A stretch of DNA of 64,000 nt from NCBI RefSeq assembly GCF_001707755.1, contig NZ_MBDL01000008.1, forward strand, positions 124,001 to 188,000, read 5' to 3'. Origin of the DNA: Acinetobacter celticus (GTDB lineage: Bacteria > Pseudomonadota > Gammaproteobacteria > Pseudomonadales > Moraxellaceae). A model generated the notes under the pieces. It was not told where the DNA came from. It saw only the letters and a list, made by a program, of their open reading frames with translations, and searched no databases. Shown here one piece after another: positions 36,641 through 61,679 of this stretch (positions within the stretch are counted from its first letter, which is position 1; every line of letters begins with the position of its first letter). Both the position numbers and the translations under genes were made by a program.

Positions 36641-37999
36641 TTAGTGAGCTGTAATATGCTGATCGATCTTCCGCTTTTGGTCTTTGATTAATACAATGCA
36701 TATTAACGCGACAATGAGTGGTACACCCAGTGCATAGAAATAACCAGAAACACCAAATTCACTCAGAATAATCCCACCAATAGCAGAGCCAATAATTGCA
36801 CCGAAACGGCCCATACCAATAGCCCAACCCGTTGCTGTCGCTCTGACTGATGCAGGATATGCATCTACCACTAAATAATTTAAAGCCAATTGTTGTCCGC
36901 CCACACCAAAACCTGCCAGCGCAATTAACAAAAATATATATGTCCATTGTTGTGTTTCAATGAGTGAACCCAAACCAACAACAACCCCTAAGCCAACAAC
37001 GACCATGAAAGCCAAAATTTTTGCTGTATTTAACTTTGGTAAAAAATAGGCCAGCGGTAATGCAAATAAAATAAAAGCCGCATTTACTGTTACAGATGCA
37101 TAGGGTGCTTGATCTGGTGCCAATCCTGCTTGTTTCAAAATGGTTGGCAACCAAGAAAGCAACATAAACCATGCAATCCAGTTAAAGAAATACACACCCC
37201 AGACACCAATTGTGGTTCGTCCTAAACCATTTTGAAACAACATTGAAAGGTGCATTTTTTCAGTACGAACTGGGCTCAATAAAGCCAAGTCCTGATCTGA
37301 AATCGTGACTTTTTTCGTTGTCATACGCTCAAGGACGGCCTCTATTTTCTGCTTCGCATTGCTTTTTTTACTTTGCGCTAAATATTCTAAAGATTCAGGC
37401 AAGGCAAAATATAAGAGTACCAAAAGAAGCAATGGTAGTATGCCACCAATCAAATAAATTCCTTGCCAGCCCCATAGAGGTAAAATTTTAGCAGCCAACA
37501 AACCACCAATCATTGCTCCTGCTGGCAATGCAAGTAGCACACAAGTAGTCACCGTACCTTTATATTTTTGCGGGGAATATTCTGCAGCCAAAGCCAATAA
37601 AACGGGAGTTGCACCGCCCATTCCTAGCCCCGCAATAATCCGAAGAATAAAAATTTGATCGACATGATTTACAAAAGCAGTGAGCAGTGTCGAGACTGAA
37701 AAAATCGTCACACAAAACAGTAACGTTTTTCTACGCCCAAGTTTGTCGCCCAAAATACCTAGACACATGGCACCAATGGTCATACCAATGATACCCGCCG
37801 TTAAAATAGGTGCTAAAGCGCCTGCTTTTAAATTAAAATGTTCCAATAACGCTGGAGCGGTAAAAGCAACAGCTTGTGTATCAAAACCATCAAATAATGC
37901 GATAGCAAAACAAAGTAATATGACCCGCCACTGAAAGCCTGAAATATTACGATCAATCACCGATTTTATGACTGATTGTTCTTTTACAACTTGCTCCAT
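36641..37999 (-). CDS. MFS aromatic acid:H+ symporter (AAHS family)
   Basis: A 452-residue 12-segment MFS transporter. The first segment has the AAHS motif DGFD (ALFDGFDTQAV) and the loop between segments 2 and 3 has GDKLGRRK. PcaK, BenK and 4-hydroxybenzoate carriers belong here; the substrate is probably an aromatic or similar small acid. The ATG at 37999 is chosen over a GTG at 38029 (which adds ten polar residues); GAGA lies upstream of the ATG. It is convergent with the broken amidase, which could yield an aromatic acid such as indoleacetate, but this link is inference. Confidence 0.85.
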   Translation of the reverse strand: MEQVVKEQSVIKSVIDRNISGFQWRVILLCFAIALFDGFDTQAVAFTAPALLEHFNLKAGALAPILTAGIIGMTIGAMCLGILGDKLGRRKTLLFCVTIFSVSTLLTAFVNHVDQIFILRIIAGLGMGGATPVLLALAAEYSPQKYKGTVTTCVLLALPAGAMIGGLLAAKILPLWGWQGIYLIGGILPLLLLVLLYFALPESLEYLAQSKKSNAKQKIEAVLERMTTKKVTISDQDLALLSPVRTEKMHLSMLFQNGLGRTTIGVWGVYFFNWIAWFMLLSWLPTILKQAGLAPDQAPYASVTVNAAFILFALPLAYFLPKLNTAKILAFMVVVGLGVVVGLGSLIETQQWTYIFLLIALAGFGVGGQQLALNYLVVDAYPASVRATATGWAIGMGRFGAIIGSAIGGIILSEFGVSGYFYALGVPLIVALICIVLIKDQKRKIDQHITAH

Positions 38000-38120
38000 C
38001 CAATTATCTCTATCATCCTTAATAACCACTACTTTAGAAAGATATTACAAAATGATCAATGACTGCTAAAGTATGTTTGCATACTTAAACTGATACGAAC
38101 TTTTTTTTAAATGAACCCAA

Positions 38121-58848: not shown

Positions 58849-58975
58849 TTCTATGTTGGGCTTAAAACTAGCCATTACTGGCGCTATCCTCCTATTATTT
58901 ATTATCGCCATTGCCTTGTGGCTTCGAACGCCCGAACTTTTTGACTATTTTAACCAAGCTTTTTGCGCACATTAA
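58841..58975 (+). CDS. Single-segment membrane microprotein of 44 residues
   Basis: An ATG overlaps the MFS stop by 8 bases (ATGACTGA), with GAGGAG exactly 10 bases upstream, a strong ribosome-binding site. The product MTDSMLGLKLAITGAILLLF... has one hydrophobic segment (about 8-28) then a short polar tail. Because it overlaps and follows the transporter, it may be a small partner of that permease, as known for some MFS and other membrane proteins (inference). Size and context, not homology, support it. Confidence 0.65.
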   Translation: MTDSMLGLKLAITGAILLLFIIAIALWLRTPELFDYFNQAFCAH

Positions 58976-59149
58976 TGCTTAATTTTTTGATATTTCTCAG
59001 TCGTTATCGGACTTTGTTTTTAATATTTAAGATTAGAAAAAAGTGTGAATGTTATGATGTCAATTTCAGTTTAAAAGACCTTTATTAAAGTAGCTTGAAC
59101 TGGAAAAATTACATAGTGATAAGAATTTCATTCAACCCTGATAAAATTG

Positions 59150-59174
59150 CTTCGGACAGAATTTTTGTCCGAAG
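59150..59174 (-). terminator. Hairpin terminator of the 68-aa gene
   Basis: CTTCGGACA/TGTCCGAAG, a 9-bp perfect stem with a 7-nt loop; on the minus strand it is followed by AATTTTATC. It ends the small gene at 59187. Confidence 0.6.
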
Positions 59175-59186
59175 ACAAATTCATCC

Positions 59187-59393
59187 TTAAACTTCAACTA
59201 CTTTATAAATACTAGATGAATTTTGACTTTCAAACAAAAGCTCAATACTTGGCAATATAACTTCACCATCAATCACAATATGTTCAATACGATTGAACAC
59301 TTCAAGTGATTCTGGTCTAAGACGTAAAAGTGCTTTTGCATCTAAAATCTGACTAAACTGGTCCTTAACTTTAATATCAATTATTATGGTCAT
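59187..59393 (-). CDS. Hypothetical protein of 68 residues
   Basis: A 68-residue frame beginning MTIIIDIKVKDQFSQILDAK, acidic with a beta-alpha-beta feel; I do not recognise it. AGAG lies about 10 bases before the ATG and a 9-bp hairpin follows the stop, which supports a real transcription unit. Neighbours are the MFS/microprotein pair (convergent) and the intergenic region with the likely small RNA. Confidence 0.5.
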   Translation of the reverse strand: MTIIIDIKVKDQFSQILDAKALLRLRPESLEVFNRIEHIVIDGEVILPSIELLFESQNSSSIYKVVEV

Positions 59394-59569
59394 GGTTATT
59401 ACTCTATTTATTTATGAATTATTTTTTATAGCACAGGCCACTCTTTACACCTTCTTAAAAAGTGTTAGATTTTTTGGCATTGTAAACTTAGGTAGTTAGA
59501 ATAATTATAGATCAGTAAGATATGATCAACTGATGTAAATTGTATGACAAAACGATACGTTTCCACATT

Positions 59570-59706
59570 AAAAAAGCTCGCATTTCTGCGAGCTCTATGT
59601 TGGAAGGCTAGTGCTGATTTGTTGTCTTAACCGAAGTTTATGACTCAATTAGCTGTCATTGATCCGTCCAACTACATCGTAGCGTCTTTATGTTGCGACC
59701 TACTGT
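59570..59706 (-). ncRNA. Probable small RNA of about 137 nt
   Basis: Minus strand: promoter elements (next entry) predict a start near 59706, and the transcript would end in AGCTCGCA-GAAA-TGCGAGCT followed by six T at 59570-59594, a clean rho-independent terminator. Between them no reading frame longer than a few codons occurs. The RNA can form AUGAC/GUCAU and GUUGGA/UCCAAC stems, and has a GGACGGA stretch in single-stranded context. Not recognised as 6S, tmRNA, RNase P or another common RNA. No convincing protein alternative. Confidence 0.65.
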
Positions 59707-59712
59707 AGTTTT

Positions 59713-59741
59713 AATATAGTCGTGATTCTTTTTCTTGGCAA
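59713..59741 (-). promoter_or_regulatory. Promoter of the likely small RNA
   Basis: Minus strand: TTGCCA (-35, 59736-59741), 17-bp spacer, TATATT (-10, 59713-59718). Five of six bases match the -35 consensus and the spacing is ideal. Confidence 0.7.
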
Positions 59742-60396
59742 GGGGGTTTAACACTTCAGCACATTTGACCAAAATAAATACAATTGAAGTTTAGCTAAAA
59801 AAGCATACAATATTGAAACTAAAATTAAATAATTCTCAAATCATTCCAATTAAAAACATAAGCATTTGAATATAAAAAATTTTAAAGTAAACATCACTAC
59901 ATTCATTCTTTCACATTAATAAAAAATTCTTTCTCTTATTTAATCTTGGTGCTCTTTATATTCAATAGATGCTCAAATTTTTAGATCTTTTTTTAATCAT
60001 TTTAAATATTCTTTTTTTGTACATACCGATGTTAATTCATAGCAAGATATAAATTGAGTTTATCGTCAGAATGATGGATAGAGAATTTCAGCCACAACAC
60101 ATACTTTGAATTAGGCATTATAAATTCGAACTTAAAGACACTTATCCACAAATTTAAATTCAAAATTTATGGATAAGAATAATAAAGCGTCTGTCAGTAT
60201 TCAGATTTAAAGCACTCATTTAGTGAGTTAAATCACTAAAAAACCATAAGTTTAAAAAACTGATAAATTCTATTTCAATAAATTGAACGGTTTGATCAGT
60301 TTTGCTTAGATAGTACTTTATTTAATCGATTTTTTATGATAAAAATGCAAATAACAAATATGATTTAACGATAAATAGATCGGAAAATAAATATCT
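59742..60396. other. AT-rich intergenic stretch with inverted repeats
   Basis: About 650 very AT-rich bases without a supported gene. It has a hairpin formed by two DnaA-box-like sequences at 60141-60177, TTTAGTGA/TCACTAAA at 60219-60240, and AAAACTGAT/ATCAGTTTT at 60257-60303. Nothing else recognised. Confidence 0.5.
60141..60177. repeat. Inverted pair of DnaA-box-like sequences
   Basis: TTATCCACA (60142-60150) is a perfect DnaA box (TTATNCACA); the facing TTATCCATA on the minus strand (60168-60176) has one mismatch. CTTATCCACAAATTT and AAATTTATGGATAAG pair at 14 of 15 positions, so the two boxes form an arm of one hairpin. Confidence 0.6.
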
Positions 60397-60537
60397 ATGA
60401 AAATCGTGCAAGAAGAAAACTTACAGCAAGTCGAACATCAACTTATCTCTCGGTATCATATTGAACCGATGGCATGCTTCTTTTTTACATTAGGTATGCT
60501 GATGTGCGCTTATTTCCTCCATACCTTTATTCTCTAA
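60397..60537 (+). CDS. Small membrane protein of 46 residues
   Basis: A 46-codon frame from ATG 60397 to TAA 60537: a polar N-terminus (MKIVQEENLQQVEHQLISRY) then a hydrophobic segment (MACFFFTLGMLMCAYFLHTF). GGAAAA lies upstream, weakly spaced. A strong terminator follows directly. Similar to other single-segment microproteins; no family recognised. Confidence 0.55.
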   Translation: MKIVQEENLQQVEHQLISRYHIEPMACFFFTLGMLMCAYFLHTFIL

Positions 60538-60551
60538 TTATTTAGAGCAAT

Positions 60552-60579
60552 AAAAACCCATCGTTAAGATGGGTTTTTT
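60552..60579. terminator. Bidirectional terminator between microprotein and serC
   Basis: AAACCCATC-GTTA-AGATGGGTTT-like hairpin with A-run and T-run; the genes are convergent. Confidence 0.83.
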
Positions 60580-60599
60580 ACTTTATTAGATTTTAAAAC

Positions 60600-61679
60600 T
60601 TATGCATTGCGTTTAGCAAAGTCATCCATAAAATCAACCAAAGCCTGTACGCCTTCTAAAGGCACGGCGTTGTAAATACTTGCACGCATACCGCCAACAG
60701 AACGGTGACCCGCAAGATTCAACAAATGATTTTCTTCTGCTTCTTTTAAGAACTGTTTATCTAAATCTGCATTTGCCAAAGTAAACGGTACATTCATAAT
60801 AGAACGGTTGGGTTTAGCAATTGGATTGGCATAAAAATCACTTGAATCAATATAACCATATAACAATTCAGCTTTTGCTAAATTTGCTTGATAAATTGCG
60901 TCAATACCACCCTGTTCAAGCAACCATTCAAAGACTAAACCAGACAAATACCATGCATAAGTTGCAGGCGTATTTACCATAGATTCATTCTTTGCTTGCG
61001 CTGAATATTTCAACAAGCTTGGAATCTCAGCTTTGGCTTGATCTAATAAATCATCACGGATAATGACCAAAGTTAAACCTGCTGGGCCAATATTCTTTTG
61101 CGCACCTGCGTAAATTAGACCAAATTTAGACACATCTATTGGTGCAGATAAAATACTTGAAGATAAATCAGCAACTAAAGGTTTATTTGTTTCTGGAATA
61201 TGGGCAAACTGAATTCCCCCAATTGTTTCATTTTCTGCATAATGCACATAGGCTGCATCATCAGATAAATTCCAAGTGCTTTGATCTGTAATAGCCAACT
61301 TACCATCGAGTGTTGTACCCGCTTCAATCACGTTAATGTCGCCATAACGCTGTGCTTCTTGGGTTGCTTTTTCTGACCAAATACCCGTATGGATATAATC
61401 TGCTTTATTATTTTTACCCAGCAAATTTAAAGGAATTGCAGAGAATTGAAGTGAAGCACCACCTTGTAAAAACAGTACTTTATAATTCTCTGGAATATTC
61501 ATGAGCTTACGTAAATCTGCTTCAGCCTTTTCTGCAACTGCAACATAATCTTTACTACGATGGCTCATTTCCATAATGGAAAGACCTTTGCCATGCCAAT
61601 CGAGCATTTCAGCTTGGGCTTTTTCTAAAACGGCAGTAGGTAATGCAGCAGGGCCAGCACAGAAATTGTACGCGCGCAT
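60600..61679 (-). CDS. serC: Phosphoserine aminotransferase
   Basis: A 359-residue class V PLP aminotransferase that makes phosphoserine from 3-phosphohydroxypyruvate with glutamate as donor, for serine synthesis, and serves also in pyridoxine synthesis. The start [13 protein letters not shown] and PLP lysine in [15 protein letters not shown] are characteristic; [14 protein letters not shown] closes the active site. Length is the family norm. A single gene here, with no serA next to it. Confidence 0.97.

Follow-up and report, generated by a model that had tools for sequence, protein, structure and literature searches.

The window analysed here, a stretch of 64 000 nucleotides from Acinetobacter celticus, contains a 1-kb gap between the gene of an uncharacterised 68 amino-acid protein, C1 (59187–59393, minus strand), and a 46 amino-acid open reading frame (ORF), the latter adjoining a gene that we take to be serC-like. 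Within this gap, the minus strand carries a promoter-like sequence, TTGCCA-17-TATATT (59713–59741; -35 box TTGCCA at 59741–59736 and -10 box TATATT at 59718–59713), and an intrinsic terminator with a GAAA loop and a T tract (59570–59596). A small RNA of ~137 nt (59570–59706, minus strand) is placed here by a covariance model match and a predicted fold; its 5′ start would lie ~7 nt past the -10 box. Promoter and GC-rich terminator stem had both been noted in a preliminary description of the locus and are read directly at the positions given there. The stem, AGCTCGCA-GAAA-TGCGAGCT (59594–59575, minus strand), does consist of eight perfect pairs, and it ends about 138 nt past the -10 box, within a base of the 137 nt announced. 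A run of six T is also present (59575–59570), but it starts at the last base of the stem, so that five T, rather than six, lie past it. Contrary to the view that the RNA is far from any neighbouring gene, C1 is encoded on the same strand and starts at 59393, i.e. about 180 nt past the terminator. As for the absence of a coding frame, it holds for long frames (the sole listed ORF of at least 30 amino acids overlapping the stretch on the same strand, a 38 amino-acid frame with a TTG start at 59656–59772, begins upstream of the promoter) but not for very short ones: a frame of four codons (59659–59645) lies in the core of the RNA.

How clean the two signals are was assessed by comparing both strands of the region 58850–60600 with shuffled sequence. 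Four terminator-like sites were observed against 0.5 expected, and the terminator is therefore above chance. For promoter-like sites the numbers were 12 observed against 9.6 ± 3.3 expected; TTGCCA-17-TATATT, with 10 of the 12 consensus positions matched, ties for the best of them, but a promoter by itself is not above chance in this region. The predicted fold of the stretch including the terminator has a z score of -3.7 and was equalled by one shuffled sequence out of 200.

What settles the matter is comparison with related genomes, in which conservation is strong. Among 73 aligned copies, 71 have a promoter-like signal according to a permissive rule (no fewer than 8 of the 12 consensus positions matched, with 3 or more in the -35 and 4 or more in the -10 box, spacing of 16–18), and the -10 box reads TATATT in 60 of them and TATAGT in 9. 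For the seven terminator stem pairs counted in these sequences, 99.8% of the cells are paired and three pairs are changed on both sides. The final 12 aligned bases include a run of at least four T in 57 of the 73 copies and of at least three T in 69, in an alignment whose rows were trimmed near the T tract. Upstream of the -35 box (59742–59790, minus strand), the conserved columns define a further element, made of CAATTG (59786–59781) and two TGT triplets (59763–59761 and 59753–59751). In the 63 distinct upstream regions compared (two rows, at offset 41, took another TGT as anchor), conservation is strong for the second triplet and weaker for the first; the pair, TGT-N7-TGT, has a 10-bp spacing and lies just upstream of the -35 box, with the conserved CAATT farther upstream. 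This tandem element looks like a possible activator site. BfmR was considered as the corresponding factor, and no lead emerged.

The RNA is common to about half of the Acinetobacter genomes examined. In an initial blastn comparison covering 58 genomes, the segment was present in 17 of the 37 Acinetobacter genomes (host counted) and in none of the 21 others. A pattern based on the core gave 58 matches in a collection of named genomes, 57 of them titled Acinetobacter, A. lwoffii, A. towneri, A. indicus, A. schindleri and A. tandoii being among the carriers. The remaining match, in a Chthonomonadales bin (L019), was rejected as a carrier: its likeness ends at the pattern on one flank, and few bases are seen on the other. 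One record labelled A. baumannii (ACIN00150; L018) has a copy close to the one seen in A. piscicola and A. sichuanensis, and we infer from this resemblance that its label may be wrong. A covariance model built from 58 copies was then run on 175 Acinetobacter genomes. It gave 88 full-length matches, with E values below 1e-20, in 87 of them, one genome (G142) having two, and a single copy in two halves in another (G073). The scores are bimodal. At E ≤ 0.01 the tally rises to 101 genomes, 13 of which have only weak matches, with E above 9e-4; in the 8 of these 13 genomes whose matches were read (all except G102, G111, G122, G129 and G179), the match corresponds, by eye, to the terminator hairpin alone. 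In a family-wide sample of 249 genomes from 16 genera, all 41 genomes with matches belong to Acinetobacter, and no match was found in the plasmid and phage collections searched. Of the 87 genomes whose copy is intact, 77 have the exact 20-letter core GTTGGACRGATCANTGACAG, and so does the split copy of G073; the 10 other intact carriers have core variants, each of which was read individually.

Presence of the RNA tracks phylogeny. On a single-gene rpoB tree with a midpoint root, for which 100 of the 170 genomes with an rpoB match were picked so as to balance presence and absence (50 with the RNA, the split copy of G073 being counted as present, and 50 without), its distribution requires 3 changes; when the labels were shuffled 200 times, the number never fell below 26. 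With the midpoint root, the 50 non-carriers form one clade of 48 genomes plus two isolated genomes, G176 and G019, which lie among carriers and gave weak matches only in a permissive search with the model. Since the carriers make up the rest of the tree thus rooted, the RNA would be ancestral to the sampled genomes and would have disappeared from one large clade; rooted differently, the tree could instead imply a gain. That the RNA can be lost is indicated by G176 and G019 as well as by G073, in which the gene is split by a transposon. The inserted element (about 1987–3268 of L111) contains transposase-type frames (integrase core, HTH_21) and has inverted ends, in a layout that looks IS3-like to us, and the C1 gene downstream of the split RNA gene is an open frame of 72 amino acids. 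Acinetobacter sp. ANC 5054 carries the RNA twice (L023 and L065). The second copy shares its cluster of upstream neighbours with the copies of A. bouvetii (L040) and of strain ANC 3813 (L041), which hints at transfer between species.

Two successive alignments were made. The first one (A3) has 58 rows, 56 obtained by script and two added by hand (L017 and L050), with L036, L038 and L065 trimmed, L001, L019, L072 and L026 left out and identical rows dropped; the second (A5) has 73, i.e. the former 58, L120 and 14 of 20 further stretches, the other six being omitted as already represented, by eye. The predicted architecture begins with a 5′ hairpin, continues with a long irregular one and closes with the terminator. 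In the 5′ hairpin, GTAGGTC...GACGCTAC (59679–59703, minus strand), there are seven pairs, with 98.2% of the cells paired over 73 sequences and three doubly changed pairs. The long hairpin is closed by a long-range helix, GUUGGA-C-GG/CC-N-UCCAAC, and has a variable tip. The 5′ side of this helix and the bases after it constitute the most conserved block of the RNA, GTTGGACGGATCAATGACAG (59653–59672, minus strand), while its 3′ side belongs to a segment, ACAACAAATCAGCACTAGCCTTCCAAC (59599–59625, minus strand), that also includes an A-rich stretch and the motif CACTAG (59613–59608). The latter is invariant in all 73 copies, and the mean unpaired probability over the 73 folds is 0.73–0.87 for ACTAG and 0.48 for the first C.

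For the whole structure of 33 pairs, 96.2% of the cells are paired in the 73 copies, against 91.9% in shuffles, and 13 pairs are doubly changed, against 7.4. None of 500 shuffles scored as high on four of the five structure measures, and 75 of the 500 reached the observed value on the fifth, the number of further pair types; shifting the partners by 1–3 columns reduces pairing to 33–52%. These shuffling and sliding controls remove only part of the relatedness among copies. The doubly changed pairs indicate that the helices are kept through paired changes, which, together with full-length matches in 87 of 175 genomes, is what the covariance search of Acinetobacter genomes advocated in the preliminary description has given. 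The closing helix hardly varies, although nine copies show a compensatory change from G-C to A-U: out of its eight pairs, three are invariant, three vary on one side, one is doubly changed and one departs by mismatch only. At the other end of the long hairpin, all four counted pairs of the variable tip show double changes. Between the two, the pairing may follow one of two candidate inner folds. An inner hairpin, CANUGA/UNNUUG, brings the proportion of paired cells over the whole structure to 97.2%, versus 96.2% with a nested helix, GCUxGUU/AAUxAGC (73 copies), but none of its six pairs is doubly changed and one fails in 25 copies. The nested helix has double changes at two of its seven pairs, one position being unpaired in 46 copies and another in 17. 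Energy models favour CANUGA/UNNUUG in 28 of the 73 sequences and GCUxGUU/AAUxAGC in 10, and RNAalifold, run on the 73 copies, predicts neither inner fold (24 pairs, 8 of them doubly changed).

Conservation follows the limits of the proposed gene. Over 63 loci, mean pairwise identity drops from 0.72–0.98 in the conserved parts of the RNA to 0.57 in its variable tip, to 0.52 in the promoter region and to 0.36–0.48 in the flanks; the core value, 0.977, is an overestimate, most rows having been retrieved with a pattern located in that block, and the proportion of 77 out of 87 given above is a fairer estimate. Promoter, core and terminator are thus conserved together, unlike the diverging flanks, and the independent small RNA gene originally proposed is strongly supported by sequence. 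We regard it as highly probable, from these comparisons, that there is a conserved and structured small RNA gene at this locus.

This RNA does not correspond to a family already catalogued in Rfam 15, which gave no match at gathering score over the 64-kb window; the matches at the RNA in permissive Rfam searches, run with the locus and eight relatives, were all below threshold. 6S RNA (RF00013), a long hairpin with internal loops, bears a general likeness to it. This identity is excluded because the genome has a separate 6S gene (C9:472584-472766, 98.8 bits), and there is no RF00013 match at the present locus. Among RNAs described in Acinetobacter, Aar (sRNA21), which is 103 nt long in A. baumannii and 181 nt in A. 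baylyi, is also an intergenic sRNA of similar size with an RpoD-like promoter and an intrinsic terminator (PMC11472050). However, Aar is reported from these two species, whereas the 57 matches to the present RNA include no A. baylyi and one possibly mislabelled A. baumannii; judged by species range, the two may be distinct. AbcR200 of A. baumannii DS002 is another intergenic sRNA with a small uncharacterised ORF, orf72, downstream, but it is encoded between omt and orf72, extends into the 5′ part of omt and is Lrp-controlled (PMC11869524). Its two RACE primers match the RNA family and the region 59201–60000 at 16 of 26 and 17 of 27 bases at best. Finally, the A-rich stretch ACAANAAA resembles, by description, those of sRNA99, for which three AAN motifs are mentioned (PMC12802169), and of CrcZ-type Hfq-binding RNAs; the present RNA has one such stretch and a structured core. 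No occurrence of four strings taken from the core was found in open-licence literature text, supplementary files aside, and the available portions of the open-licence literature on Acinetobacter sRNAs, supplementary tables aside, do not describe the RNA (PMC11472050, PMC5320573, PMC11869524, PMC12802169). It is apparently an undescribed small regulatory RNA of Acinetobacter: its general kind, the bacterial intergenic small RNA, is already known, and the RNA is new within it. The Acinetobacter sRNA papers that our searches brought up are mainly concerned with A. baumannii. This RNA spans about half of the genus genomes examined. Its regulon can be tested directly with the help of the alignment and covariance model, the natural losses, the copy split by a transposon and the short invariant segments.

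What could its function be? Our preferred reading, with moderate confidence, is an Hfq-assisted antisense RNA acting by base-pairing; antisense pairing, also raised in the preliminary description, is thus the leading idea. The host has an Hfq gene (PF17209 match, E = 1.3e-29), and nearly 100 Hfq-associated sRNAs have been reported in A. baumannii (PMC12802169). In addition to its U tract, the RNA contains ACAANAAA, which precedes CACUAG and is a possible Hfq site. We propose that the RpoD holoenzyme would transcribe the RNA, perhaps with an activator acting at the tandem TGT element, and that Hfq would bind the U tail and the A-rich stretch. Either the accessible CACUAG or the conserved segment AUCAAUGACAGCU would then pair with target mRNAs, which would alter their translation or stability. 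The anatomy of the gene, its conservation and the host Hfq gene are read from the genomes; expression, Hfq binding and target pairing are what we infer. One feature counts against a base-pairing mode of action: the most conserved block is, in the predicted structure, largely paired, which is unusual for a seed.

No established target emerged when the host genome was searched for complements of the core. The complement of a 14-mer of the core has 38 matches, versus 8 for the reversed control. Twenty-five of the 38 were inspected, against all 6 and all 13 in the two other lists, each list including the RNA gene itself. Since these matches lie mostly inside or opposite ORFs (13 of the 25 inside in sense and 8 opposite), the excess is taken as an effect of coding composition. 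The inspected sites as a whole are mostly inside or opposite genes, and only three are near ORF starts (L175, L200 and L201). Two of these belong to the second core-complement list, with six matches, and sit 22 (L201) and 52 nt (L200) inside an ORF. For CTAGTGCTG, there are 13 matches versus 18 for the control, none of them near an ORF start in sense; the one intergenic match (L351) lies on the other strand from a gene which by eye we would name cold-shock-like. The third site, AGCAGTCATTGATC (L175; 38054–38067, minus strand), is a candidate target, complementary to the core with one mismatch: ten pairs, the mismatch, then five more pairs. It lies 25–38 nt upstream of the GTG of a 462 amino-acid ORF (36641–38029, minus strand) which, by eye, resembles a transporter of aromatic acids of the MFS type. 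Since a simple estimate gives about one such 14-mer with at most one mismatch by chance, and four were found besides the RNA gene, the site upstream of the MFS gene should be considered a lead and not evidence.

The main rival to this base-pairing sRNA is a structured RNA that binds a protein, the long-range helix and the segments it encloses serving to titrate or scaffold that protein without pairing to mRNAs. Such a role, which we consider unlikely though deserving of attention, would account for the near-invariance of the long-range helix, which on both strands concerns the sequence itself and not just the pairing, as well as for the position of the most conserved part of the RNA, in the block adjoining the helix. 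On the other hand, the RNA matches no known family, the canonical 6S RNA is encoded elsewhere and there is no protein candidate.

It is improbable, in our view, that the RNA is translated, or has a dual function, by means of the short frame found in its core. This putative micro-frame, ATG ACA GCT AAT TGA (59645–59659, minus strand), would form with a GGA of the core a small translation unit gated by the long-range helix, the general form of the frame, from its NUG start, being NUG ACA GCU NNU UGA. The start is NUG in all 58 copies of the first alignment (50 AUG, 7 UUG and 1 CUG), most of which were found by a pattern that requires the UG; the frame stops after four codons in 49 of them, and a synonymous change, ACA to ACG, is seen in five genomes. 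However, the nine other frames run over 6–20 codons, codon 4 varies freely, non-synonymous changes occur (GCU to GUU, ACA to AUA), and the GGA is mostly paired in predicted folds. Altogether, the changes do not look like those expected under protein-coding constraint. One could also imagine, and we rate this as quite improbable, that the core mimics a translation-initiation site, with GGA, NUG and a four-codon frame shut by the nearly invariant long-range helix. If so, a target or a protein that engaged the strand CC-N-UCCAAC or CACUAG by pairing would open the ribosome-binding site, and the molecule would be a dual-function or ribosome-gated RNA and not a plain antisense sRNA.

Proximity to C1 raises the possibility that the RNA is a 5′ leader or attenuator of that gene: C1 is on the same strand, at the short distance given above, and is a frequent neighbour, its cluster adjoining the RNA in 50 of the 74 loci examined, among which some genomes are present twice and some loci end early. 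We nevertheless judge it quite unlikely. C1 has its own upstream box and -10-like element, conserved, by eye, in carriers as well as in 20 non-carrier loci (a regular expression written for the box was too strict and matched 5 of 40). The gene also occurs in genomes devoid of the RNA, its place is occupied by a different gene, C0, at several loci, and the terminator of the RNA is conserved. From the separate upstream box and the independent occurrence of C1, the RNA is most simply seen as its own unit; its upstream neighbour varies between loci. Nor did predicted pairing of the RNA with the start region of the C1 mRNA prove consistently better than with shuffled sequences over 39 loci (mean z of -0.57, range 1.8 to -4.3, with four loci below -2). 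The C1 protein has no Pfam, NCBIfam or PHROGs match; its small-protein family is matched in 137 of 175 Acinetobacter genomes, more distant paralogues included. Just downstream of C1, a second terminator-like hairpin was noticed (59150–59174, minus strand), with a stem CTTCGGACA/TGTCCGAAG followed by CAATTTTATC.

The preliminary description had also suggested, from the stretch GGACGGA, that a CsrA-like protein could bind the RNA. RNAs of the RsmY/RsmZ type, which sequester this protein, carry several GGA loops. Growth of A. baumannii on rich media is described as requiring CsrA (PMC12802169), and the present RNA does have one ACGGA, conforming to the ANGGA motif. Yet over the 73 copies this motif occurs once in 62, twice in 1 and not at all in 10, and 9 of the latter read ACAGA with the partner changed from C to U, so that the helix is kept. 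The hallmark of CsrB/RsmZ-type RNAs, several ANGGA in hairpin loops, is therefore absent, with at most one motif in 72 of the 73 copies, located in a helix. As the sole ANGGA is helical and missing from 10 copies, the CsrA idea is not supported, and a sequestering RNA of this type is very unlikely. Least probable is a chance promoter next to an unrelated terminator with no RNA gene between them, which the weakness of the promoter by itself might suggest but which is hardly credible given the conservation in 87 of 175 genomes, the paired changes and the phylogenetic signal.
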